This document shows, piece by piece, positions 3,255 through 59,325 of a stretch of DNA of 64,000 bases (position 1 is its first letter; every line of letters starts with the position of its first letter). Origin of the DNA: Rhodovastum atsumiense (GTDB lineage: Bacteria; Pseudomonadota; Alphaproteobacteria; Acetobacterales; Acetobacteraceae); contig NZ_OW485603.1 of NCBI RefSeq assembly GCF_937425535.1, positions 124,001 through 188,000 of the forward strand, read 5' to 3'. A model generated the notes under the pieces. It was given only the letters and a program-made list of their open reading frames with translations, was not told where the DNA came from and did not search any database. The position numbers and the translations under genes were made by a program.

Positions 3255-3748
3255 TGAGCAAACCGAAGGCAGAACGGGGGCCGCAGCTATGCGTGCGCGT
3301 CTCGGAAGAGGAACTCAAGGTCCTCACGGTCCTGGCGCAATCCGCCGGATACGCCAGTGCCGCTGGATTCCTGCGGTATCTGGGGCAACGCGCCATTCGG
3401 GCCGAAGCGATTCCGCCCTCTACCGGACTGGTGTGCCCAGCGCCTCCCCCCGATGGTCGCATCGAGGAACTCCAACAGAGACTGGCCGAGCTGTCGGAGC
3501 AGGTTGGCCGAATTGAAAAACTGATCCAGGCGGGATTGGCTCACCTGTCTTTCCTTGAGGGATTGGTGCGCTCCACCGCTCTCCAGGCGACCTCGGCATC
3601 CTACATGGCCATCCAGGTCTGGCGGCTCCTTGCCGATGAGGCACTCCGGCCGCCCTCCGGCATCCCGTCGCAGATGCTCAGCGACATCCAGGAACTGCAT
3701 CGCCGAGCCTTGGCCGCTGCGGAAAGCCACGGAGCCACGACGGGATGA
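3254..3748 (+). CDS. Ribbon-helix-helix-like relaxosome accessory protein (MobC/TraJ-like)
   Basis: A 164-residue protein starting at the ATG that overlaps the previous stop (TGATG). Residues 12-48 (LCVRVSEEELKVLTVLAQ, then GYASAAGFLRYLGQRA) match the pattern of MobC/NikA-type ribbon-helix-helix accessory proteins: a short strand, then two amphipathic helices. Residues 65-90 form a leucine-spaced coiled coil. The stop overlaps the traD start by 4 bp. Such proteins bind oriT and aid relaxase loading; here the assignment rests on pattern and position. Confidence 0.6.
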   Translation: MSKPKAERGPQLCVRVSEEELKVLTVLAQSAGYASAAGFLRYLGQRAIRAEAIPPSTGLVCPAPPPDGRIEELQQRLAELSEQVGRIEKLIQAGLAHLSFLEGLVRSTALQATSASYMAIQVWRLLADEALRPPSGIPSQMLSDIQELHRRALAAAESHGATTG

Positions 3749-5685
3749 ACCAGCAGGCTCAGCACATCGCCGACGACGTCTCCCGCGGCGTCGGCCTCCT
3801 GCACCTGCGCCTGCGGATCCAGCTGCAGAGCCTCATCCGGATCGTACTGATCTCCCTGGCCGGCTTCGCGGTGACGCCGTTGCTCACCATCTGGGCCCTG
3901 GCCGAAAAGCACGCCATCGCTGGAGCCACCTGGTGGAAGATCGCCGCCATTCTCTGCGAGAGCAATGCCTGCCAGCGCCCCTTGCATCCAATGGGAGATC
4001 CACGGATCTGGCCCGCCGGGTCAATCATCTCCAACCATTGGTTTACCGCCCAGGCCACCGCGATCACCGACCTGTTCTGGCGCGGTGTCATGTACGGCGT
4101 CCTCGTCACCCCGATCCTGACCCTGTGCCTCTATCTTGGCGTCCGCGCCATCGGCAGCGCGGCCCGTGATCCCTACCTCCTGCGTGGCCGCAGCCTCACC
4201 TCCGACAAGCGCCTGGCCGATGACCTGATCCGCCGCCGCGCCGCCAGCGACCTTGCCATCGGCACCATCCCCCTCGTCCTCGGCAAGGAAACCCAGCACA
4301 TCCTGATGGCCGGCACGGTCGGTGCCGGCAAAACCCAGGCCATGTACCGCTTGCTCGACCAGATCCGTGCCCGCGGCGACATCGCCATCATCTACGACAT
4401 CGCCGGTGCCTACATCCCGAGCTTCTACCGCCCCGAGCTTGGCGACCGGATCCTCAATCCGCTCGACCGCCGCTCCGCGTCCTGGTCGCCCTGGGCCGAG
4501 ATCAACAACCCCGCCGCCGCCGATCGCCTTGCCGCGTCCCTCATCCCCTCGCCGTCCGGTCCCAACCAGTTCTTCTCCGACGCGGCCCGCGCCATCTTCT
4601 CCACCGGCTTGCGTCTGCTCCAGGAGGCGCAGCCGCGCACCGTCCTTGAGCTGTTCCGTCTGCTGGTGGTCGCCCCCCGCGAGGAAAAGCAGCGGAGCTT
4701 CGCCGGCACCGAGATCGCCAGGTTCTACGACCCGGAGGCAGGCCGCACTGCCGCCGCCATCGACGTCACCGCCGCCAATTACATCCGCAGCCTGCGCTTC
4801 CTCCGGGCCGATGCCGGCAGCAATGATTTCAGCCTCTCCGACTTCATCCGGTCGGCCGACCAGGCGACCGCTGCCAACACCGCCCAACCGTGGCTGTTCA
4901 TCAGCTCCCGCCGGCGGGAGCATGATGCCTTGCGGCCGCTCATCACCTGCCTGCTGGACTCCGCGATTGCCGCGGCCCTGTCGTTGCCGGAGAACCTGAA
5001 CCGCCGGATCTGGATCTTCCTCGACGAGTTGGACAGCCTGCAGCAGCTGCCCAGCCTCGCGGCCGCCCTGCAGGAAGGCCGCAAATACGGCATCTGCATC
5101 GTCGCCGGGCTGCAGGACCTGCAGCAGCTGATGGACGTCTGGGGCAAGGAGCGCGGCGAGGCGATCCTCTCGTTGTTCAACACCGCTGCCATCTTCCGGC
5201 TCAACTCCAACTTCAGCGCCGAGTACATGTCCAGGCTGCTCGGCGAGGCCGAGCGGGAGCGCACCGAGGAGTCGGCCCGCTACGGTGCGCACATGAGCTA
5301 CGAATCGCTGAACCTGGGCACCCGGCGAGATGTCGAGCGGGTGGTGCTGCCCACCGACATTATGACGCTGGCGGACCTGCACTGCTATGTGCGCCTGCCG
5401 GGTGCCTACCCGGTGGCCCGGACCCGCCTGCCCGACCCCGGCAAGACCGCCCGGCCGAAGCGGCATGCGCCCTTTGAGGAAGCGGATCTGTCCGGGTCGG
5501 TCTCGGCCCATTTGCGGGCGGCCGCCTCGCTCCCGGCCGACGCTGCGTCAGCGTCCACCACGCAGGCTGTCCCCGGGCCGCAGGAGCCACCCACGCCGGA
5601 CCAGCCAGCAAGGGATCGCCCCCCTGAGCAGGCGCTGACCTTTGCGCCCGCGCAGGACGGGCTCGAGTCCTTCCCACAGCTTTGA
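3745..5685 (+). CDS. traD: Type IV coupling protein TraD
   Basis: A 646-residue inner-membrane ATPase of the VirD4/TraD family, which docks the relaxase-DNA complex to the secretion channel. Two membrane segments lie at about residues 30-52 and 112-137. Walker A is GTVGAGKT (about 191-198), followed by IIYDIAGAYIPSFYRP and ILNPLDRRSASWSPW, characteristic of the TrwB/TraD AAD-binding domain. Walker B is IWIFLDELDS (about 423-432). The C-terminal 90 residues are a proline-rich tail, where TraD proteins often contact the relaxosome. It overlaps the accessory gene upstream and is followed after 18 bp by the relaxase. Confidence 0.93.
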   Translation: MNQQAQHIADDVSRGVGLLHLRLRIQLQSLIRIVLISLAGFAVTPLLTIWALAEKHAIAGATWWKIAAILCESNACQRPLHPMGDPRIWPAGSIISNHWFTAQATAITDLFWRGVMYGVLVTPILTLCLYLGVRAIGSAARDPYLLRGRSLTSDKRLADDLIRRRAASDLAIGTIPLVLGKETQHILMAGTVGAGKTQAMYRLLDQIRARGDIAIIYDIAGAYIPSFYRPELGDRILNPLDRRSASWSPWAEINNPAAADRLAASLIPSPSGPNQFFSDAARAIFSTGLRLLQEAQPRTVLELFRLLVVAPREEKQRSFAGTEIARFYDPEAGRTAAAIDVTAANYIRSLRFLRADAGSNDFSLSDFIRSADQATAANTAQPWLFISSRRREHDALRPLITCLLDSAIAAALSLPENLNRRIWIFLDELDSLQQLPSLAAALQEGRKYGICIVAGLQDLQQLMDVWGKERGEAILSLFNTAAIFRLNSNFSAEYMSRLLGEAERERTEESARYGAHMSYESLNLGTRRDVERVVLPTDIMTLADLHCYVRLPGAYPVARTRLPDPGKTARPKRHAPFEEADLSGSVSAHLRAAASLPADAASASTTQAVPGPQEPPTPDQPARDRPPEQALTFAPAQDGLESFPQL

Positions 5686-5703
5686 CCGCGGGCCGCGTCC
5701 CCC

Positions 5704-8649
5704 ATGCTCTCCGCCGCCGCCATCAAGAGCGCCAACCAGGCTGCCAGCTACTTCGCCAAGGACAACTACTATACCGCCGAGGCCGAGGGCCCGAGCGCCT
5801 GGTGGGGCGCCGGCGCCACCGCGGCGGGCTTCTCCGGCGGCGTCGACGCTGCGCGGTTCGAGGCCGCCCTGCGCGGCGAACTGCCGGACAGCACCCGGCT
5901 CGGCACCGAGCGGAACGGTGAATGGCAGCACAAGCCCGGTTGGGACCTCACCTGGTCGGCCCCGAAATCGGTCTCCCTCCTCGCCCTGGTCGGGGGCGAC
6001 ACCCGGCTGATCACGGCACACGACAACGCCGTGCGAGCGGCGATGGCGCATATCGAGGCCACTCAGGTCCATACCCGCATCCGCCAGGGCGGGGACGTTG
6101 CGCTCACCCAGACCAACAACCTCACCGCCGCCCTGTTCCGCCACGACGTCAACCGCAACCAGGAGCCGCAACTCCACACCCATGCCGTCGTGCTCAACGC
6201 TACCCGTACCGAGGACGGGCAGTGGCGCAGCATCGAGAGCAAGCCGATGCTCAAGGCGATCAAGGCCAGCGGGGAATTCTACCGGGTCCATCTCGCCGCC
6301 GAAATCCGCCGGCTCGGCTATGACATCGTGCCCGGCAAGGACGGCACCTTCGAGATCGCCGGTATCGGCCAGGAGACCCTCGACCGTTTCTCTTCCCGCT
6401 CCGCCCAGGTCGAGGCACGCCTCGAGGACAAGGGGCTGACCCGGGCCACCGCGTCGACCGGGCAGAAGATGGATGCCGCCCTGCGGAGCCGCCGCGCCAA
6501 GGAGCCGGTCGACCGCGCCGTGCTGACGGCCGCGTGGCAGGCCCGCCTCGGCGAGGACCTGCGGGCGCTGGCCTCCCTGGTGCGAACCGCCACGCGGCAC
6601 GAACAGTCCTATACGCGGTTCGCCTGGTCGCAGCAGAGGGCCGCCCGGGAGGCGGTTGAAACAGCCACTTCCGCCCTCTCGGAACGGGAGCAGGCCTTCT
6701 CGCATGACCGGCTCATGCAGGCGGCCAGCCGCTTCGCGCTCGGTCGTGCCACGCCGGATGCTGTCGAGCGGGCGGTCGCTCACCTGGTCACGGCCGGCGC
6801 CCTGGTCCCGCGTGACGTCACCGAGCCCTCGCCGCAGATCCGGGCCGACACCGTACGTCCCGGCTACACGACCCCCGCCGCCATCCGCACCGAGCTCAAG
6901 CTGTTCGACCTGCTTGACCACGCCAAGGGCGCGGCACGGCCATTCCTCTCCGCCAACGCCGCCCAGGCTGCTGTCCGTGCCGCGGAGGAGCGCTCCGCGG
7001 CCATGGGGCACAGCTGGAATGAGGCCCAGCGCGCCGCCGCCACCGGCATTCTCAGGTCACGCGACCGGGTCGTCGTGCTGCAAGGCGCGGCCGGCACCGC
7101 CAAGACCTCCACCGTGCTTGCCACCGTCGCCGCCGCTGCCAGCGCCGCGGGCCACACCGTGCGGGCCCTCGCGCCGTCCGCCTCCGCCGCCCAGACGCTC
7201 GGCAAGGCCCTCCATCTGGAAGGGCAGACCGTGCACCGCTTCCTGTCTGACCTGGCGCGGGACGGCTCCTCTCCGGGCCTGCTCGACCGCCTGGCCGGTG
7301 GCCACGAGGTGTGGATCGTCGACGAGATGAGCCTGCTTGGCACCGGAAAAACGGTGGAACTGCTGCAGGCGGCGAAAGAGCAGCGCGCCAGGGTCATCCT
7401 CACCGGCGACCGGCTCCAGCTCGGCAGCGTCGAGGCCGGCCAGGCCTTCACGCAGGCGCAGGAGCGGGGCCTGGAGACTTTCCGTCTCGATGAGATCGTC
7501 CGCCAGCAAACCGCCGACGGTCGCGCCGCGGTCAAGGCCATCATCGCCCGCGATGCCGCCACCGCCTTCCAGGCGTTGGAACGCGATGGCGGCCGGATCG
7601 TCGAAGAGGCCACCGCCAACGACCGGATCATGATGATGGCCCGGCACTATGCCGGCCTCTCTCCGGCGGAGCGGGCCAATACCCTCCTGATCGACCCCAG
7701 CCGGGAGGGCAGCGAGGCGATCAAAGGCACGGTCCGCACCTTGCTGCGGATGCAGGGCGAGTTGGCCGGGCCGGCGGCGCAGGGGACCCGCCTGCTCGAT
7801 GCGGGGCTTGCCAACGCGGAGAAACGGTCCGCCGTTTCCTACACGGTCGGCCAGGTGATCCGCACGGCCAAGGGCCTCGACACCGAGGACGGACGGCTGG
7901 ACCCGGGCGAATATGCCGTCATCAGCGCGATCGACACCCGCCAGGATCGCCTGGCCCTTCGCACCGGGGATGGCCGGGCTCTCACCTTGGCCACCCGCGG
8001 CATCGGCCCGCGCCACCTGGATGTCTTCCAGCCGGCGCAAGGTGACCTGCAGGTCGGCGACCGCATCCGCTGGAACCGCAATGACACCCGGCTCGGGTTG
8101 GCGCGCGGTGACTTTGGAACCATCACCGCCATTGATGGCAACCAGGCGACTATTGGCTTCGAGAAGGGACACGAGCTGCGGCTCGACGTCACCGAGCCTC
8201 GTCACCAGCACTACGACTATGCCTATGCCGTGACTGCCTACAGCGCGCAGGGCATGACCAAGGATTGGGTGCTGCACGCGGAATCCTGGCGGGTGAACCT
8301 GATCAACTGGCGCAGCATGTACGTTGGCATCTCACGCGGCACGACCAGCGGCACCATCATCACGGATGACCGCGCCCTGCTGGAGGAGGCCATCGGTGTT
8401 CGTGCCGGCGAGAAGAGTCTAGCCATTGACCCCGACCTGATCACCCGCGTCCGCGACGCCACGCAGGAGGCCGTCAGCAATGCCACGCGCAGCCAGATTG
8501 TCGTCGAGGTCGAACGGCCCCACGCGGACGAGGCGCTTCATCAGCGTGCCGCCCGCGCCCTCATGGCCAGGATCAAGGGCCACCAATCCACCGCATCACC
8601 TGAAACGTCGAAATCAAACGGCCATGAATTAAATATTAATTCAGAATGA
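5704..8649 (+). CDS. traI: MobF-family relaxase-helicase TraI/TrwC
   Basis: A 981-residue bifunctional enzyme that nicks oriT and unwinds the transferred strand. The N-terminal TrwC relaxase domain has tyrosines at residues 16, 22 and 23 and the three-histidine metal site (FRHDVNRN...PQLHTHAVVLN; His147, His158, His160). The helicase half has Walker A QGAAGTAKTST (about 460-470), VDEMSLLG as motif II, and the C-terminal AVTAYSAQGMTKD block of RecD/UvrD-type helicases. It is shorter than F TraI (about 1750 residues) and close to TrwC of R388, so it probably lacks the second, inactive helicase copy. The last codons run into AT-rich DNA. Confidence 0.95.
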   Translation: MLSAAAIKSANQAASYFAKDNYYTAEAEGPSAWWGAGATAAGFSGGVDAARFEAALRGELPDSTRLGTERNGEWQHKPGWDLTWSAPKSVSLLALVGGDTRLITAHDNAVRAAMAHIEATQVHTRIRQGGDVALTQTNNLTAALFRHDVNRNQEPQLHTHAVVLNATRTEDGQWRSIESKPMLKAIKASGEFYRVHLAAEIRRLGYDIVPGKDGTFEIAGIGQETLDRFSSRSAQVEARLEDKGLTRATASTGQKMDAALRSRRAKEPVDRAVLTAAWQARLGEDLRALASLVRTATRHEQSYTRFAWSQQRAAREAVETATSALSEREQAFSHDRLMQAASRFALGRATPDAVERAVAHLVTAGALVPRDVTEPSPQIRADTVRPGYTTPAAIRTELKLFDLLDHAKGAARPFLSANAAQAAVRAAEERSAAMGHSWNEAQRAAATGILRSRDRVVVLQGAAGTAKTSTVLATVAAAASAAGHTVRALAPSASAAQTLGKALHLEGQTVHRFLSDLARDGSSPGLLDRLAGGHEVWIVDEMSLLGTGKTVELLQAAKEQRARVILTGDRLQLGSVEAGQAFTQAQERGLETFRLDEIVRQQTADGRAAVKAIIARDAATAFQALERDGGRIVEEATANDRIMMMARHYAGLSPAERANTLLIDPSREGSEAIKGTVRTLLRMQGELAGPAAQGTRLLDAGLANAEKRSAVSYTVGQVIRTAKGLDTEDGRLDPGEYAVISAIDTRQDRLALRTGDGRALTLATRGIGPRHLDVFQPAQGDLQVGDRIRWNRNDTRLGLARGDFGTITAIDGNQATIGFEKGHELRLDVTEPRHQHYDYAYAVTAYSAQGMTKDWVLHAESWRVNLINWRSMYVGISRGTTSGTIITDDRALLEEAIGVRAGEKSLAIDPDLITRVRDATQEAVSNATRSQIVVEVERPHADEALHQRAARALMARIKGHQSTASPETSKSNGHELNINSE

Positions 8650-35777: not shown

Positions 35778-36055
35778 GGCAGCAAGGTCCGGATGTACGG
35801 ATTGATGAAGCCTGGCCCGCGTGCCGGATAGATGCCAAACCAGTACATGGCATGCAGGACGTAGAATTCCGGGCGCCCGTCGCGGTACTTCTGGTAGCCT
35901 GCCATCATCGCCAGGCCGGCAATCACAAAGATCACCACGTTGCCGAGCAACATCCCGAAGCACAGGAACAACAGCGGGACCGCCACGTCATCAATCCGCC
36001 ATAACAGGAAGCGGGGTGGCTCATCCGCGGTCTCGGGAAACAGCACGCGCTCCAT
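35774..36055 (-). CDS. traL: F-type conjugation protein TraL
   Basis: A 93-residue inner-membrane protein starting at MERVLFPETADEPPRFLLW, overlapping the stop of the flhC-like gene. Two adjacent hydrophobic segments (about 25-55) and the C-terminal MYWFGIYPARGPGFINPYIRTLLP are typical of TraL/VirB3-type proteins. Confidence 0.9.
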   Translation of the reverse strand: MERVLFPETADEPPRFLLWRIDDVAVPLLFLCFGMLLGNVVIFVIAGLAMMAGYQKYRDGRPEFYVLHAMYWFGIYPARGPGFINPYIRTLLP

Positions 36056-36552
36056 CAGGCAGCCTCCCTGATCGAAACATGCTGGCACACCGGGCAGGCG
36101 GGCCGCGGTACCCTTTGGCTGTGCCAGTTCGGTAATCCGCAGCGCTCGCACGGTCTCAGGCTGATCTCACCCCGTTGCCACGCCATATAGAGGCTCAGGG
36201 CATGCTGCGCGGAGAGCCGGTCCCGGCGTCCGGGGGCAATCACGTCCTGGAACGCGCGGAATAGTCGGTAGGCCGCCAACATGCGCGCGACAGCATCATG
36301 CTCCCTGCGCGAGCGCAGGACCCGCCAAAGACAGGCCCCATACAGGCTGCCTTGCAGGACCATGCTCCGACTGGTCCACAGCCGCTCGGGTGCCCGCACA
36401 CGCACCTGCTTGTCCAGTTCACGCGCCACCCGCCGGGCGAAGTTCTCCGCGATCCCCGTCAGGTCCGCCACGGTACCGGGCGATGCTCCCTGCCGAATGA
36501 GGTAGGCGGTCGCCGCCTTGAGCCTGATCTCCTCGAGCGCCTCCAGCTTCAT
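36055..36552 (-). CDS. FlhC-like transcriptional activator
   Basis: A 165-residue protein that aligns along its length with FlhC: an N-terminal EIRLKAATAYLIRQGA helix region like ARDIQLAMELITLGA, AVARMLAAYRLFRAFQ like DAVIKAYRLYL, and MAWQRGEISLRPCERCG leading to a zinc site of four cysteines (Cys135, Cys138, Cys153, Cys156). FlhC with FlhD activates flagellar genes; the related SetC/SetD pair activates conjugation of SXT/R391. Here the gene overlaps its partner upstream and traL downstream, so it is co-transcribed with the pilus genes it probably controls. Confidence 0.82.
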   Translation of the reverse strand: MKLEALEEIRLKAATAYLIRQGASPGTVADLTGIAENFARRVARELDKQVRVRAPERLWTSRSMVLQGSLYGACLWRVLRSRREHDAVARMLAAYRLFRAFQDVIAPGRRDRLSAQHALSLYMAWQRGEISLRPCERCGLPNWHSQRVPRPACPVCQHVSIREAA

Positions 36553-37220
36553 GCGCCGCTTCTCATTTTCAGCAGGTCAGCGATCGCCTCGAAACGGTCC
36601 AGTGGGCTCCATCGCGGCGCCAGCAGTCGGCGCTCGCAGAGCGGCGTGGTCGTCGTCCAGGGGCGTGTTGACACCAGCCAAAGCGGCCAGCGCAGCAGCA
36701 GGTCATCACGCTGTTGAACCTGCAAAGGCGTCAGGCCCAATATCACCTCGACCAGGAGAGGATCGGAGGCGGTCCGGATCAACATTACCAGCACGGCTTG
36801 CAGCTGGAGCTGCAGGTTGCGAGCCTCACGTGCCGGGGCGTCTTCTGCCGGCGGCAGTGGGCTGGCGATGATTGGAGGTGCGCCCGGCCGGAAACTGGCG
36901 AAGGCGAATGGTTCACCGGCGACTTGGGCGCACGTATCCGGCTGCTGCGCAATCTCGCAGGCCCGAACGACGGCTTCCGGCGACAGACCGTGCGCTTTTG
37001 CCGACCGCTCCACCCCGATCGCGCGTGTTGAAGCCTGGAGCAAGCGGAGGAAGATCTCGTTCAGATCGGCCACGAGGTCGAAGGTGTCGGCATCGGGCTC
37101 CGTGGCGTCATCATCCTGGATACGGCAACCAAGCGACCTGGTCCGACTCAGGAGAGTCCGTGGATAATTCAGCTCCTCTTGTGTCTCAATCTGGCGCTTG
37201 GGGACTGGGCGGTTTCTCAT
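36549..37220 (-). CDS. FlhD-like partner of the FlhC-like activator (tentative)
   Basis: A 223-residue protein sandwiched between the transglycosylase and flhC-like genes with 4-bp overlaps on both sides. Residues about 50-110 (DLVADLNEIFLRLLQAS ... AQVAGEPFAFASFRP) resemble FlhD (DINLSYLLLAQRL ... LAETNQLVCHFRF). A second, similar helical unit lies at about 145-190 (LQLQLQAVLVMLI ... LTPLQVQQRDDLLLRWPLWLVSTRP), so it may be a tandem FlhD-like protein, about twice the usual length. Similarity is weak but gene order with FlhC supports it. Confidence 0.5.
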   Translation of the reverse strand: MRNRPVPKRQIETQEELNYPRTLLSRTRSLGCRIQDDDATEPDADTFDLVADLNEIFLRLLQASTRAIGVERSAKAHGLSPEAVVRACEIAQQPDTCAQVAGEPFAFASFRPGAPPIIASPLPPAEDAPAREARNLQLQLQAVLVMLIRTASDPLLVEVILGLTPLQVQQRDDLLLRWPLWLVSTRPWTTTTPLCERRLLAPRWSPLDRFEAIADLLKMRSGA

Positions 37221-37795
37221 GTCAGGCGCTCCCGGCGACGCAGCGAGGCCACGCCGACCAAACGCAAGTACAGTTGCCAGACCGCCGTGCCGTACCAGCG
37301 TGCCCGCCACGGCGTCCAGGAATGGTAGCGGCCGAGCCCCATCAGGAAATCCTGTGGTGCGGAGCGGAGTGCGTGACCAAGGATCTGCCCGCCCACCAGA
37401 ACGTTCGTCGTCGGATCAAGGAGGTCGGCCGCCCGGGTGACCCGGTGATGATGCGCCGCCCAATTGACCTGCATCAGGCCGATATCGACGTTCATGCTCG
37501 TGGCAATGCCAGCCAGCTGGCGCTCCGCCTCGTCGCGGCTGCGCGCCCGCACATCACGGCCAGCATACCCAAGCGTCCAGGGATACGGCGCCATCCGCCC
37601 GCGGCCGTCGCTGAGCCCGGATTCAAACAGGGCAATGGCGTAGACCAGCAGCGGATCCTCGACACCTGCCCGCCTGGCGGCCTCTGCCCAGACCGTATCT
37701 CGGAAATCGAGCTGGCTGTGCTCATCCGCGGCATAGGCGCCACCACGGGGCGTCAGGCACGCGGGGAGCAGCAGCAGAAGCGATCGACGTTTCAT
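37217..37795 (-). CDS. VirB1-like lytic transglycosylase
   Basis: A 192-residue exported protein: N-terminal signal (about 4-22), then an SLT domain with ALFESGLS (catalytic Glu58), MNVDIGLMQVNW and the C-terminal LMGLGRYHSW. It cuts peptidoglycan to open a path for the envelope-spanning channel, like F orf169 and VirB1. It is the first gene of the minus-strand tra operon and overlaps the flhD-like gene by 4 bp. Confidence 0.9.
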   Translation of the reverse strand: MKRRSLLLLLPACLTPRGGAYAADEHSQLDFRDTVWAEAARRAGVEDPLLVYAIALFESGLSDGRGRMAPYPWTLGYAGRDVRARSRDEAERQLAGIATSMNVDIGLMQVNWAAHHHRVTRAADLLDPTTNVLVGGQILGHALRSAPQDFLMGLGRYHSWTPWRARWYGTAVWQLYLRLVGVASLRRRERLT

Positions 37796-38392
37796 GCATC
37801 CGGTCGCCCGTTGTGGTTTTGCAACGCTACTGTGACAAAGCGTGCGCGCAGGCCAGTACTTTTTTCGTGTGCCGTTGAAAGCGACTGAGCATCTTGTCGG
37901 CCACGGGGTAAAAAATGCACACGGCCAGCTAATTCCTGGCACCTGAATCAAACAATACTCATCAAAATGATGCTGCACCGGCAGGTGATGACCAACGATC
38001 GGATCCGCGCGGCCAAGAGTCACCGCTATTAACAAACGATAACAAAATGCGGGCGGAGCCCTTTTTAATTCGAGTCTGATCCGACCCAAACTTCGGGAAA
38101 CACCGTGTCAAGCGTCTCAATTTCTCAACCCAGGCGGTGGCTCGTCTCAAAGCTGCCGCTGCCGAAAACAACCGGGAGTAGATCATCACAAATTTGCTAT
38201 CGCCCTGAATCGGCTGCCACAGCAAATTTGTCCTGGAAATTCCTTAGGGTACGGCTATAGGGTCGATCTCTCCTCGGAATGAGAGACGCGGCCACAGTTC
38301 TGCCTGCAATCGTAGATTGATCATTCGGGCTGCGCGCCACCGACGTGCGGCGCCGCATCGGTGGCAGTGACGACGTAAGGAGCGCAAGCAAG
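37796..38392. promoter_or_regulatory. Divergent promoter region of the tra operon
   Basis: About 600 bases with no supported gene between the head of the minus-strand tra operon and the plus-strand gene at 38393. It is AT-richer than its surroundings, especially 37850-38060, and must hold the tra promoter and presumably binding sites for the FlhDC-like regulators. No clear repeat matching an FlhDC box was found by eye. Confidence 0.5.
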
Positions 38393-38839
38393 ATGACCCC
38401 CGCCGCCAAGTCGATTTGGCTCTGTCTGATGGCTGCTGCGTGCGCAGCGCCGCCTCCCACGCCGGCATCGGCGTTGGCCATTGTAACTGAAGGTCCCAAA
38501 ACATTACTTGGTCCGACGACCGCCAAGGTGCCTGTCACCCGGGCCGGAGCGGCGCTTCTCGTGGCCCATGTCGAGCCGGTTTTGCGTCTGCATCCGGCGC
38601 CAGCGACCAGGCACGCGCCGGTGCGCGATTTTCCCGACGCGTCGGCAAACGGCGCGTCTGACCATAACGGATTGTTATTGGCTGTGAGTCCTTTATCGGA
38701 CGAGGTCGACGAAATCGCCAGTGCGCTGCGCCGCTTTTGCCATCACTGGCCGTTGGCCGATGACCTGACCTTGCTGGTTTCCCGTCGCATCATTGCACCG
38801 AATGATGTGACCAGCGCCCTTTGCAAATCCTTCGACTAG
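38393..38839 (+). CDS. Small exported hypothetical protein
   Basis: A 148-residue protein from the ATG preceded by AAGGAG. Residues 1-25 form a signal-like hydrophobic stretch with a cysteine (LMAAACAAP), possibly but not clearly a lipobox. The C-terminal half (LLLAVSPLSDEVDEIASALRR ... WPLADDLTLLVSRRI) ends with a string reminiscent of PP2C/SpoIIE phosphatases (DDLTLLV), but the rest of such a domain is absent. Function unknown. It lies between the tra promoter and repC. Confidence 0.5.
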   Translation: MTPAAKSIWLCLMAAACAAPPPTPASALAIVTEGPKTLLGPTTAKVPVTRAGAALLVAHVEPVLRLHPAPATRHAPVRDFPDASANGASDHNGLLLAVSPLSDEVDEIASALRRFCHHWPLADDLTLLVSRRIIAPNDVTSALCKSFD

Positions 38840-38890
38840 AGGCGGCAACCAGCATCACACGAAAACGTGAGCTTAATGTAGCTAATTCGT

Positions 38891-38923
38891 AAAGAAAGAA
38901 CCCGCCGCTGAGGAAGCGGCGGG
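38891..38923 (-). terminator. Intrinsic terminator on the minus strand in the repC leader
   Basis: CCCGCCGCT and AGCGGCGGG form a perfect 9-bp stem with a 5-base loop (38901-38923); read on minus it is followed by TTCTTTCTTT. The plus strand has no U-tract after the stem, so termination acts only against the minus transcript, as for the antisense RNA of repABC plasmids. Confidence 0.8.
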
Positions 38924-38990
38924 CGCGCACACAAAGAGCACCAGTAGATACGAAATCTTTCCGAGATTCGGGTCGCATGTTTTGTGCGGG
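38891..38990 (-). ncRNA. Probable antisense counter-transcribed RNA of repC
   Basis: The minus-strand terminator lies about 140 bp upstream of the repC start with no minus-strand gene feeding into it, the position of the ctRNA (incA) of repABC plasmids. The 5' end is not determined, so the extent upstream of the stem is approximate; no confident promoter was assigned. Confidence 0.45.
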
Positions 38991-39042
38991 ATTGCAACGT
39001 TAAAGTTGCAGATGCCCTCGCTCGCCCATTCCTCAGCGGTGG
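38902..39042 (+). promoter_or_regulatory. repC leader with two competing RNA structures
   Basis: In the repC mRNA, CCGCCGCTGAGG (38902-38913) forms the 5' arm and loop of the hairpin at 38901-38923, but it is also complementary to CCTCAGCGGTGG (39031-39042) over 12 bases with one G-U pair. The second partner ends about 12 bases before the repC ribosome site (CGGAG, 39053-39057). Pairing by the antisense RNA would shift the balance between the two folds, as in repABC copy-number control. Confidence 0.65.
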
Positions 39043-39064
39043 TCCCCCTTCACGGAGATCACTT

Positions 39065-39113
39065 ATGGCACATACCGTATCGACTTCGCGACAAACGGGA
39101 CTTCGCCGTCTCA
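39065..39113 (+). pseudogene. repC: repC 5' fragment, cut off by IS630
   Basis: ATG at 39065 (GGAG 8 bp upstream) opens MAHTVSTSRQTGLRRL and runs into the IS630 element. Removing the element with one copy of TCA rejoins the frame to T-VPMLAAM, giving the RepC-type N-terminal RRLT..ML motif. The native protein would be 455 residues. Confidence 0.85.
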
Positions 39114-40287
39114 TACCAACCGCCCTAAATTTTGACCGATGCCCAGGCACGCTGAGTGATGGACTTGATGGTGTCTGGGGTAGCCATCAGAAAGTTCCAG
39201 GCATCCAGGCAAGCGACCAGGATGGCGTTGTAGCTGTTCCATACGCGCAGACTGAGCTTGTTGGCCCGCAGATATTCCCAGACGTTCTCCATCGGGTTCA
39301 ATTCCGGCGCGTAGGCTGGCAGGCGCAGCAGGCTGATGTTGTCGGGCACAGGCAGGCGTTGGCTGGGCTGGTGCCATCCGGCCCCGTCACAGACCAACAC
39401 AGCGTGCGCGCCGGGTGCCACCTGCCGGCTGATCTCGATCAGATGCTCGGCCATGGCTTCGCTGTTGACCGCCGGCATGATGATCGCGGCACCAACAGCC
39501 CGTTCGGGGCAGATGGCACCGAACAGGTAGGCAGAATCATGACGATTATCGCGTACCGCCCCCGGACGCGAACCACGCGGCGCCCAAACGTAGGTCAGCG
39601 TACCTTGCTGTCCGACCCTGGCTTCATCCTGAAACCAGATCTCGATCGGCTTGTCGGTAGCACCCGGTGGCAGCGCCGCGGTTACCAGGTCGGCAAAGTT
39701 TTTTTGAAAGCCTCCTGGGCATCAGCATCCTTCTTGGGATGGCAAGGCCGTGGCTTCAGGGGCACCAGATCCAGCCGATGCAACAACTTGCTGACCGTAC
39801 GCTCATGGATGTCCACGTCGTAGCGCGTGGCGATCTGCTGGCGGAGGTCAACGCAGCGCCAACGAACTACGCCGTCGCGCTCCGGGTCTGGACCCGCCAC
39901 CACCAACGCTTTCAGCTCCTGCATCTGTTCGGCCGTCAGCACAGGTGGCCGGCCTTCGCGCGGTTGGTCTGCCAGTCCGGCAATCCCCTCCGCATTATAG
40001 CGGTGTACCCAATCCCGCAGCGTCTGCCGGTCCATCCCGCCGGCCGCCGCCGCCTCGGCCCGCGAAGCGCCTTCCAGAACCATCGCAAGGGCCAGCAAGC
40101 GACACGACACACGCCCATCCCGCGTGCGCGATGCCTCGCGCCGCAGGTCAGCCGCATCAAACTCCCGCCGCGTGATCGTCACCGCCCGGCCCATGTCCCC
40201 TCCCGTCATTTGACCCGACAACCAGAGTGAACCGAACCAGCGCCAGTCCGAAACTCACATAAGAGTCAACACTTTGGGCGGCTGGTA
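39114..40287 (-). mobile_element. IS630-family insertion sequence (copy 1)
   Basis: About 1.17 kb with inverted ends TACCAACCGCCC and TACCAGCCGCCC. It is flanked on both sides by TCA (39111-39113, 40288-40290). It sits inside codon 17 of repC. Related to copy 2 at 53192-54367 but clearly diverged. Confidence 0.9.
39125..40194 (-). CDS. IS630 transposase, made by -1 frameshift
   Basis: Two frames. The first (40194 to 39682) encodes the helix-turn-helix domains (LLALAMVLEGASRAEAAAAG, DRQTLRDWVHRYN). The second encodes the DDE domain (IEIWFQDEARVGQ, VLVCDGAGWH, NPMENVW). They join at a run of seven A (39700-39706): reading back one base turns FKKTLPTW into FKKNFADLV and continues the domain. 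The ATG at 40194 has a GGGAGG site. Programmed -1 frameshifting is known for IS630 members. Confidence 0.9.
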
Positions 40288-40292
40288 TCACC

Positions 40293-41609
40293 GTGCCAAT
40301 GCTGGCGGCTATGTCCCCTGCCGGCCAGAAGCAACGTCTTTCACCAGAGACATCGCCGCAGACGATCACGCCCGGCAAGGCGCTGGCAGCCTTCAAGGCG
40401 GCAGCACCGTTCCTCGGTTTTCCTTCGCGCATTGTCCATGGCATCGACTGGCTGTTCCGATTCACGCAGTCGCAGGACTGGACCGGGGATTACGACCCAA
40501 TCGTCTGGCCATCCGCCGCATTGCAGCAGCACGATCTGGATTTGGGGCGGACCCAGGTCAAGACACTCAATCGCCGGATGGCGGAGCTTGGCCTGATTGA
40601 AATGCGGGACTCCCCGAATGGCCGCCGGTATGGCCATCGGGACAAAGAGACCGGGGCAATTGTCGAAGCCTATGGATTCTGCCTCGCTCCCCTCCGCCGT
40701 AGATACGCGGAGTTCCTCGAAGTTGCTGCAGCCGGCAAGGCCGCCAGAGCCCAACTGAAGGCCTTGCGGCGCCGCGTCAGCATCGCTCGTCGAGATTTCC
40801 GGCAAGTTCTTGGTGCCTGCGGAGAGATGAAGCTTCACTCAGATGAATGGCAGCACTTTGAAGAGACGCATAGGGCGTGTCTGACGGCATGCGCTGGAAT
40901 CGAGATCCCAGAGTCGCTGCTTCCACGCGTCCTCAAGCTGGAGGAAAATCTGCAATGTGCCCGCGATCGTCTCCAGGCAGGCCGGGCGGCTTTGGCCCGT
41001 GCGGCTCACCCTGTGAATCCCATGGAAACAGGCCCCGAGGGGCCAGAATACCGGCCCCACCAATATACCTACAAATCAGATCTTGATCGTGAAAACGATA
41101 CAGTAGCAGCTGCGGGGCGCGAGGACTCGGCATCATCGGCGCTGGCGTTGCCGACGGCGACACCAGCGCCGATGACAACGCCTCGAGTGCCGACGGCGCT
41201 CATGATGGGCGCCAGGGACAAAACCGCCGTTCACGACGGCGCAGGCTCAGGACCGACCGCGATGGATCAACCAGAGCCGACATTGCGGATCCACCCGGAC
41301 GAGTTGCTCAGCCTCGCCCCTCGCCTGCGGACCTATGTTCTTTCCAATGATCCGGGTTGGCCGGAGATTGTCGACGCTGCCGGCCACATGCGGCGTGATC
41401 TCGGCATCGATCACCACCTTTGGGGCAAGGCCTGCCTTACCATGGGACGTCACGGAGCCGCAGTTGCACTGGCCATCGTCTCCACCAAGCCGCGTGGCTA
41501 CTTCCGCTCTTCCGCCGCGGGATACTTCTTCGGGATGGTCGCCAAGGCAAAGGCAGGAAAACTCAACCTCCCCAGTTCCATCTGGGGCTTGCGGAAGACC
41601 CGCCAATGA
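40293..41609 (+). CDS. repC: Plasmid replication initiator RepC (main part)
   Basis: The 438-residue remainder of RepC after the IS630. Family features: WLFRFTQSQDWTGDYDPIVWPS, LGRTQVKTLNRRMAELGLIEM, RDSPNGRRYGHRD and EAYGFCLAPLRRRY in the winged-helix half; a coiled region (about 170-235); a Pro/Thr-rich linker; and the C-terminal domain ending GYFFGMVAKAKAGKLNLPSSIWGL. Only 17 N-terminal residues are separated, so translation from GTG 40293 or ATG 40299 might still give a nearly complete protein, but no good ribosome site is seen. No repA or repB adjoins it. Confidence 0.88.
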   Translation: MPMLAAMSPAGQKQRLSPETSPQTITPGKALAAFKAAAPFLGFPSRIVHGIDWLFRFTQSQDWTGDYDPIVWPSAALQQHDLDLGRTQVKTLNRRMAELGLIEMRDSPNGRRYGHRDKETGAIVEAYGFCLAPLRRRYAEFLEVAAAGKAARAQLKALRRRVSIARRDFRQVLGACGEMKLHSDEWQHFEETHRACLTACAGIEIPESLLPRVLKLEENLQCARDRLQAGRAALARAAHPVNPMETGPEGPEYRPHQYTYKSDLDRENDTVAAAGREDSASSALALPTATPAPMTTPRVPTALMMGARDKTAVHDGAGSGPTAMDQPEPTLRIHPDELLSLAPRLRTYVLSNDPGWPEIVDAAGHMRRDLGIDHHLWGKACLTMGRHGAAVALAIVSTKPRGYFRSSAAGYFFGMVAKAKAGKLNLPSSIWGLRKTRQ

Positions 41610-53191: not shown

Positions 53192-54367
53192 TACCAGCCC
53201 GCTTTGACGTTGACTCTTCTGTGAATTGCCACTCCCGGCCGATCTCGATTCGATGGTTCGCAGGCGATACGCGGAGGAGGCAGTGCATGGGCGCGGCGTT
53301 GGCGATTACGCGGGCGGACCACACAGCCGCTGAATTGCGGGCATTGGCTGCCAAGAGTGATGATGGCCCGCAAGTGCGCCGCCTGCTTGCGCTGGCGCTG
53401 GTTCTGGAAGGCCGCTCGCGCACTGAGGCAGCGGAAGAGAGCGGCATGGAGCGGCAGACGCTGCGGGACTGGGTGCAGCGGTACAATGATGAGGGAGTCG
53501 ATGGCCTGAAGTCGCGCAGCAGCCCCGGCCGCACACCCTTTCTGACCGTTGAGCAGAAGGCCGAGCTGAAAGAGCTGGTCATCCAGGGACCTGATCCCGA
53601 GGTGCATCAGGTCGTGCGCTGGCGCTGCGAGGACCTGCGAGCGGAAGTGGCCCGGCGGTTCTCGGTGGAGGTGCATGAGAGCACGGTGGGCAAATGGCTG
53701 CACCAACTTGAGTTGACGCCGCTGAAGCCGCGCCCGTTCCATCCCAAGAGGGACCCGGAGGCGCAGGACGTTTTTAAAAAAGCTTCAGTGATTTAGCCAA
53801 AGAAGCTCTGCTCGGAACCACTTCTGGTACACCGATAGAAATCTGGTTTCAGGACGAAGCCAGGGTCGGCCAAAAGGGGACGCTGACCTATGTTTGGGCG
53901 CCGGTCGGGGCGCGGCCACCGATGGTGCGCGACAGCCGCCGTGAGTCCGTCTACTTGTTTGGCGCCATCTGCCCGGATCGAGCCGTCGGCGCCGCCGTCA
54001 TCATGCCTGCGGTCAATACCGAAGCCATGAACGCCCATTTGCAGGAAATCAGCACGCAGGTGGCTCCCGGCGCACACGCCCTCCTGGTCTGCGATCGTGC
54101 CGGGTGGCACGCCACCAGCAAGGGCCTGCGGGTACCCGCCAACATCAGCTTGCTTCCGCAGCCAGCCTACGCGCCGGAATTGAACCCGATGGAAAACGTC
54201 TGGGATTACCTCCGCAGCAACAAACTATGCAGCCTGGTCTGGAACAGCTACGAGGCGATCGTTCAAGCGTGCAAGCAGGCTTGGGACTTCCTCGTCAACG
54301 ATCCGGAACGCATCCGCTCCATCGGCACCCGCGAATGGGCGTGTGTCAATCTTTAGGCGGGCTGGTA
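53192..54367 (+). mobile_element. IS630-family insertion sequence (copy 2)
   Basis: 1176 bp with inverted ends TACCAGCCCGC. TCA flanks both sides (53189-53191, 54368-54370). Removal with one TCA rejoins recombinase 2 in frame (LELGS-VGKLLRS); removal with a TA duplication would not. Confidence 0.92.
53287..54356 (+). CDS. IS630 transposase, made by -1 frameshift
   Basis: ATG with GGAGGAGG upstream. The first frame (to 53796) encodes helix-turn-helix domains (LLALALVLEGRSRTEAAEES); the second the DDE domain (IEIWFQDEARVGQ, LLVCDRAGWH, NPMENVW). They join at A-AAA-AAG near 53780, where a -1 shift converts FKKASVI into FKKSFSDLAKEAL. Same layout as copy 1; diverged but clearly related. Confidence 0.92.
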
Positions 54368-54370
54368 TCA

Positions 54371-55813
54371 GTCGGTAAGCTGCTCCGCTCCTTTCGGCAT
54401 CGCGGGCTTGCCGTGCCGCGGCTTGATCGATTCGGTGAGGTGGTCTGGCGGACACCGACAGATAGCATAATCAGCAGGATTCTGAAGAATCCTGCCTATG
54501 CAGGCGCATTTGTCTACGGCCGCACCCGGTCCTGCGGCGCCACCTACGCCAACGGCAAGACGATCACCACTCGCCGTCCCATGGAGGAGTGGAAAGTCAT
54601 CGTGAAAGACCGTTATCCTGCCTACATCGGGTGGGCCGACTTTGAACGGATCCAGGCCATGCTGCGCGACAACCACGCGGAGTACGTCCGCAACAGAACC
54701 CGTGGCGTGCCGCGCGATGGTGCGGCCCTGCTGCAGGGCATTGTCTGGTGCGGCCGTTGCGGCCACAAGATGGCCGTGGAGTACAAGAACGCCAACCGCT
54801 ACGTCTGTAACTTTCTCCAGCGGAGCCAGGGTGGGCCGTTGTGCCAGCACCTCCCTGCGGATCCGATCGACGCGCAGGTGGTGGCTGCGTTTTTCGCCAC
54901 GGTCAGCCAGGAGGAACTTGAGGCCTGGCAACGGGCGCAGGACACCCGGCGGCAAACGGAGGACGCACTGGATCGCGCTGAGGCACAGCAAGTGGAGCGC
55001 CTGCGCTACCAAGCATTGCTCGCCGAGCGACAGTTCAACCGTGTTGATCCTGACAATCGCCTGGTCGCATCGGAACTGGAGCACCGCTGGGAGGCCGCAT
55101 TGCGCGAGCTGCGAGAAGCCGAGGAGGCACTGACGCTGCACCGTGCATCGCGCACTCAGCCGGACGCGCTGACCTCCGAAGAGCGTGACAACTTCCTTGC
55201 CCTCGGCTCGCAGCTGCCTGCTATATGGCACCAAGCCGGTATGGATCGATCGCAAAAGAAGGCACTGCTACGCTGCCTGATCGAGAAAGTCATCCTGCAT
55301 CGGACGTCCCCTGAACGCATTGACATCCGCATCGTCTGGCGTGGTGGTGAGGTCTCCGAAGCACAGGTCGAGCCGAAGGTGTATGCTCTGCATGCTCTCT
55401 CTCGCGCCGCTGACATGCAGGCCCGAATGCTTGAACTGGCTCGCCAAGGCCTGACTGATGCCGAAGTGGCTAACGTCCTGACCAGCGAAGGGTACCGCTC
55501 GCCTCGCTGCCATCATGTCCTGGCACGTACCGTGCAGGTCTTTCGACAGCGTCATCGGGTTTTGCGCGGCGCCAGCCGGACACATCCCCGGCACATTCCG
55601 GGATGGCTTACCATGTCTGAGCTGGCGAGGCGGCTGCAGGTGTCACGCGGTTGGATCGAGCACCATGTCCGCAACGGAACAATTGTCATTGTTCGTGATG
55701 TTGCAGCGAAGCGCTACCTATTTCCTGACACCAAAAAGACCATAGACGTCCTGAAGAAGCTGAGATTAGGCAAAATCGATCACATCAACTTCGTAACAAG
55801 CACGAGCAAATGA
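54371..55813 (+). pseudogene. Large serine recombinase 2, C-terminal part
   Basis: Continues the interrupted gene: VGKLLRSFRHRGLAVPRL, ILKNPAYAGAFVYGRTR, a zinc ribbon (CGRCGHKM...CNF...CQHL) and coiled coil, and a C-terminal helix-turn-helix (TMSELARRLQVSRGWIEHHV). The domain set is complete, so only the IS630 inactivates the gene. Confidence 0.88.
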
Positions 55814-58243: not shown

Positions 58244-59325
58244 ATGTCAGCGCCTCCTAATCCCTCTGAGATGCCGCGCGCCGAGCTGGAAGCCGAAGTG
58301 ACGGCCCTGCGAGGCGAGGTGGCTGAACTGAAGCAGTTGGTGCTGGCGCTCCGGGACGAGATTGCCCGGCTGAAGGGGCTGAAGGGCCGGCCGGTGATCA
58401 AGCCGAGCGGCATGGAGAAGGCGACCGAGGCGAAGCGCGCTGGCAAGCGGAGCAAGCGCCGTGGCCGCGGCCCGGTGACGCCACGGGTGACAGTTGAAAC
58501 CCAGGTGATCCGGGTGACGGCGCCGGCGGGGTCGCAGTTCAAGGGCTACGAACCCTACCAGATGCAGGATCTGGTGCTCACCGCGCGGGTAGTGCGCTAT
58601 CGGCGCGAACGCTGGGTGACCCCGGCGGGCGAGACGATCGTGGCGCCGCTGCCCGAGGGCATCCGCGGCCATTTCGGGCCGGAGCTGCGCCGCTATGTGC
58701 TGATGCAGTATCACCAGGGCCAGGTCACCGTGGAGCGGCTGGTGGCTCAGCTGCAGGCGGTCGGGGTCAGCATCTCCAAGCGGCAGGTCATGCGGCTGCT
58801 GATCGAGGGGCAGGACGCGTTTCTGACCGAGACCCGGGAGGTGCTGCGGGCGGGACTGGAGACGGCGTCCTGGATCACGGTGGACGACACCGGAGCGCGC
58901 CACCGTGGCGCCAATGCGGTGTGCACGCAGATCGGCAACGACGATTTTGCCTGGTTCGGCACCACCGGCAGCAAGAGCCGGATGAACTTCCTCGAGCTGC
59001 TGTGCGCCGGCCACACGGATTACGTGATCAACCACGCGGCGCTGGAATACATGCACGAGCATAACCTGGCCGGACCGACGATCCAGCAGCTGGTCGGACA
59101 TCCGCAGCGGCAGTTTGCCGATGAGGCTGCGTGGCAGCACCATCTGGAGCAACTGGGCATCACCGACCTCCAGGTGACTCCCGACCCGGTGCGTGTGGCC
59201 ACCGAGGGGGCGCTCTGGGGTGCCATCGCCGCGCATGGATTTCTCAATGAGGCGGTGATCGTCAGTGACGACGCTGGCCAGTTCAACGTCGGCCAGCACG
59301 CCCTGTGCCGAGTAGGTGGGGACGT
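58244..59325 (+). pseudogene. IS66-like single-gene transposase, 3' truncated
   Basis: From ATG 58244: coiled coil (about 8-50), a basic KRSKRRGRGP segment, then an IS66-type core with SWITVDDTGARHRG (first Asp) and IVSDDAGQFNVGQHALC (second Asp region). Family homology stops at HALC; the part with the catalytic Glu is absent. A 6-bp-stem repeat CCGGGG-CATAA-CCCCGG lies 60-70 bp upstream. The right part was lost where the ISL3 element now stands. Confidence 0.8.

Follow-up and report, generated by a model that had tools for sequence, protein, structure and literature searches.

Interruption of repC by a recent IS630-like insertion on a Rhodovastum atsumiense plasmid that carries a second, complete replicon

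In all likelihood, plasmid C3 of Rhodovastum atsumiense (199,245 bp) is a two-replicon plasmid carrying a RepC and a RepA_C replicon. The former would have been switched off by an IS630-like element of recent arrival, which parts RepC from the leader with its ribosome site, from the start codon, and from the conserved N-terminal motif, and the intact RepA_C/iteron/ParA replicon located elsewhere on the molecule would take care of copying and partition. As a second complete replicon is present on C3, no special mechanism has to be invoked for the broken initiator; RepC most probably represents the ordinary case of a freshly killed, redundant spare replicon, and the intact RepA_C very probably keeps the plasmid going.

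The window, i.e. the whole stretch of 64,000 nucleotides that was analysed, corresponds to C3:124001-188000 of a genome of 7.42 Mb in nine contigs. The relatives indicate a position in or close to Acetobacteraceae. An open reading frame (ORF) coding for a 548-amino acid recombinase reads in frame through both contig ends of C3, which is therefore a closed circle. A TrwB-type coupling protein and a TrwC relaxase are encoded at positions 3745-8649 of the window, indicating that C3 is probably self-transmissible or mobilizable.

Interrupted repC gene and IS630-like element

RepC occurs only once in the genome, namely on C3. The preliminary description had placed an IS630 element in codon 17 of repC; the start codon (ATG at 39065, with GGAG immediately upstream), the ends of the 1,174-bp IS630-like element, and the stop codon all hold (Table 1). 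The downstream ORF matches PF03428 (RP-C N-terminal domain, E 8e-50) and PF11800 (C-terminal region, E 1.5e-22). The oriV of the R. etli family is located within the repC gene.

In-silico excision of the element together with one TCA yields MAHTVSTSRQTGLRRLTVPMLAAM, which restores the frame as ...TGLRR-LT-VPMLAAM, in agreement with the rejoining reported before. This is not a matter of chance, as the junction spells exactly a motif, G-x-R-[RK]-x-[TS]-x-x-[ML], that was found at this very site in all 17 RepC relatives aligned (G12, R14, R/K15, T/S17, and M/L20), these being annotated or predicted proteins whose annotated starts were accepted as given. A scan of a collection of genome contigs retrieved no close RepC relative, and hence no near-identical uninterrupted copy for comparison, so that the earlier frame was judged by the family motif; on that independent basis, repC was intact before the insertion. 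The preliminary description mentions a loss of only 17 residues and of the native ribosome site; the damage is greater than this wording implies, since those 17 residues include the invariant motif. Indeed, G-x-R-[RK]-x-[TS] is detached by the element and no longer joined to the rest of the frame, and repC is a disrupted member of the RepC family and most probably not a working one.

The element has the ends TACC...GGTA, with 23-bp imperfect terminal repeats (TACCARCCGCCC), and carries a helix-turn-helix plus DDE_3 transposase, as in the IS630 family. The two transposase frames overlap at an A7 run, where ORF B is probably reached via a -1 programmed frameshift. ISAli3 relatives are annotated as a single coding sequence, the length of which is not a multiple of three. 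ISAli3 and ISAzs14 of Azospirillum, the DNA of which is about 65-68% identical to that of the C3 element, share with it the termini TACCA...TGGTA, TNA duplications, and two overlapping transposase frames. A further relative of the element, 71% identical, is present in the window at 53380-54260 (C3:177380-178260).

Textbook IS630 elements duplicate a TA dinucleotide target. In the subgroup comprising the present element, ISAli3, and ISAzs14, the duplication is not TA; a three-base TNA was found at all nine copies examined. Within this genome, the element occurs in four full copies, which have TCA, TGA, TCA, and TGA, respectively, at both flanks; the five Azospirillum copies, of ISAli3 or ISAzs14, have TAA or TGA at both flanks. 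A plain TA duplication at repC was rejected, as the ancestral gene would be out of frame and its conserved motif broken; it is the RepC motif that fixes the junction and thereby the duplication as TCA. A literature search on TNA duplications in IS630 returned nothing usable. Since NCBI names the relatives IS630-like and the duplication is TNA, the element is referred to as IS630-like (ISAli3-type) instead of as the IS630 of the preliminary description.

Two chromosomal copies match the copy in repC at 100% over the full length, and the insertion is therefore recent. Such recency would also fit a polymorphic insertion, whereby some C3 molecules never had or have lost the element and RepC works on these molecules; yet, the basis for this is a single assembly, and it is quite unlikely.

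Table 1. Features of the repC region (positions in the window)
Feature	Position	Strand	Remarks
repC leader, countertranscript-RNA-type region	38840..39064	+	Ribosome site GGAG at about 39054-39057; layout as in the folded leaders of relatives
Terminator-like hairpin, candidate antisense-RNA terminator	38900..38924	-	GCCCGCCGCTTCCTCAGCGGCGGGT then TCTTTCTTTA; counterpart in the leaders of relatives
repC 5' fragment	39065..39113	+	Codons 1-16 and base 1 of codon 17; G12, R14, and R15 of the conserved motif (sequence; alignment with 17 relatives)
Left TCA target-duplication copy	39111..39113	+	Three other copies and the ISAli3/ISAzs14 relatives likewise have TNA duplications
IS630-like insertion sequence	39114..40287	-	1,174 bp; 100% identical to C1:3767454-3768627 and C1:126032-127205
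Transposase ORF B frame	39125..39700	-	DDE_3, E 9e-13; frame change near the A7 run at about 39700
Transposase ORF A	39682..40221	-	Helix-turn-helix: HTH_33, HTH_32, HTH_29
Right TCA target-duplication copy	40288..40290	+	Matches the left copy
repC 3' fragment	40293..41609	+	438 codons from GTG, the first in-frame start; stop at 41609

RepA_C replicon of C3 and other plasmid initiators

The preliminary description had left it open whether RepC is still made or another replicon maintains the molecule, and the latter is supported in that a second, complete replicon (RepA_C/iteron/parA) spans C3:55086-59042, outside the window but on the same circular molecule. Its initiator, an intact ORF of 312 amino acids (C3:57583-58521, minus strand), matches RepA_C (PF04796, E 4.5e-25) and is 50-58% identical to annotated RepA proteins encoded on plasmids of Azospirillum and Roseomonas, the alignments starting at residue 1 and covering 96-99%. 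An iteron-like cluster is located within and upstream of repA, at about C3:58249-59040. Indeed, when the whole of C3 was searched for the 17-mer GCGTCACAAGAGTCCAC with at most three mismatches, seven of the eight sites fell at 58249-59024, i.e. in this cluster. The parA gene (55086-55793) codes for a 235-amino acid ParA and is followed by a 301-amino acid ORF, an arrangement beside RepA that resembles the one in Roseomonas mucosa. It had been suggested that a second complete replicon, together with an absence of detectable RepC, would make repC simply a dead gene; the first of these two, the second rep gene to be looked for on the full molecule, was thus found as RepA_C, which would do the work in the cell. 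The replicon is adjoined by a HipA-like gene and a preceding short helix-turn-helix-like ORF (C3:53019-54637), which may be a toxin-antitoxin pair.

As on C3, the RepA_C gene was present once on each of C2, C4, C5, C6, C7, and C8. RepA_C is the usual plasmid replicon of this strain and RepC an extra one. An RPA initiator was found on C2 only, which bears both RPA and RepA_C initiators (54890-55588 and 82613-83050), indicating that a plasmid with two replicons is no exception in this strain. Rep_3 was searched for as well and was absent. On the chromosome, a weak RepA_C match in an open frame of 491 amino acids (C1:3190662-3191078) possibly derives from an integrated plasmid.

Shortened RepC and repC leader

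The other option of the preliminary description was the production of RepC from a downstream start or an IS-borne signal, i.e. a shortened protein made from GTG 40293 or ATG 40299, through read-through or an IS promoter, that is still used and free of antisense control. As the Pfam domains are preserved in the 438-codon fragment from residue 14 onwards, it may have some activity; the downstream ORF is open with both domains kept, and its GTG 40293 is no further downstream than codon 18. This GTG is preceded, at a distance of 9 nt, by a weak GGCGG, with a predicted pairing with the 16S tail of -3.6 kcal/mol (-3.0 for ATG 40299 and -1.7 for ATG 40311), versus -5.5 kcal/mol for the native repC start and about -8 kcal/mol for several relatives. 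However, the frame upstream of the 3' fragment is shut by a TAA at 40260, no in-frame start occurs between this stop codon and GTG 40293, and the element contributes none. A sigma-70 scan of 38700-40500 yielded no promoter-like site, whether for repC or for an antisense RNA. Nor does the openness of the 438-codon ORF say anything about its use, as the recent insertion has left no time for decay. In R. etli p42d, moreover, RepC without codons 2-14, expressed from Plac with an optimised strong ribosome site, gave no transconjugants and no replication (PMC3155836), a deletion that the strain table of the same paper gives as codons 2-29 (PMC3155836); this RepC is distantly related to the one of C3, so that the result may not transfer. 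Together, the lost invariant residues, the weak ribosome sites, the lack of a promoter, and the R. etli deletion make it unlikely that the truncated RepC is functional, and its continued use is very improbable; an escape of RepC from antisense control found no support. We infer that no functional RepC is made.

Upstream of the element, the repC leader is intact. The leaders of relatives have a common layout, consisting of a GC-rich hairpin about 150 nt upstream, a second hairpin, and then GGAG(G)-ATCAC-ATG. Likewise, the C3 leader has a terminator-like hairpin on the minus strand and a second hairpin between the latter and the start codon. The start context is GGAG-ATCAC..ATG in C3 repC versus GGAGGATCACGATG in Acidiphilium and Acidibrevibacterium, the ribosome-site context directly 5' of the start in relatives, GGAGGATCACG-ATG, being common with C3 repC. 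A search of the leader-side DNA (36000-39064) against plasmids returned nothing. Antisense RNA is known from repC and repABC plasmids (PMC10194956). As a scan of the whole window and the leader gave no match with the countertranscript RNAs (ctRNAs) of Rfam, the antisense RNA of the C3 leader is a putative one.

These leader features suggest a further possibility, namely that the initiator is dead and that the antisense RNA acts in trans to bar plasmids with a matching RepC leader, C3 itself being immune because it replicates from RepA_C. Besides the intact leader and its terminator-like hairpin, this is in line with the displacement of repABC plasmids in rhizobia by ctRNA supplied in trans (summarised in PMC10194956) and with the lack of any other RepC plasmid in the genome, although such a lack is to be expected anyway. 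Given that such RNAs are highly specific, and that neither an antisense-RNA promoter nor an Rfam match was found, a role of this kind is unlikely. It is compatible, as an added function, with a RepC replicon that is off on a plasmid copied from RepA_C. If true, the element would have made an exclusion locus out of the RepC replicon, with the leader as the incompatibility determinant.

Comparison with known systems

The closest parallels of the C3 repC are the RepC-only replicons of Acidiphilium (pACRY04, pACMV3, and pACMV4), the RepC proteins of which are 45-48% identical to that of C3 and which share with it a GLRRL-type N-terminus, leader hairpins, and an GGAGGATCAC-ATG start. In contrast to the interrupted gene of C3, the Acidiphilium repC is intact, and some of the plasmids have ParA and a ribbon-helix-helix gene in its vicinity; next to C3 repC, no parA was found. 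As to the loss of one replicon, the RepFIC replicon of the F plasmid is interrupted by Tn1000. Like C3, the F plasmid has more than one replicon, one of which has been disrupted by a transposable element; the replicon and transposon families of both plasmids are unrelated.

Plasmid pSmeLPU88b of S. meliloti (repABC + repC) resembles C3 in having a repC-family module beside a second, partitioning replicon (PMC10194956), the partner being repABC in the former and RepA_C with iterons in the latter. Its repC has likewise been altered by a mobile element, which lengthens the C-terminal part (PMC10194956), whereas the N-terminus is cut in C3. Insertional mutants of either module of this two-module plasmid were obtained and retained (PMC10194956), so that dual-replicon plasmids and their survival after an insertion in either initiator are already known. 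Among such plasmids, C3 would offer a clean snapshot of a multi-replicon plasmid that is losing a redundant replicon, before decay of the gene sets in.
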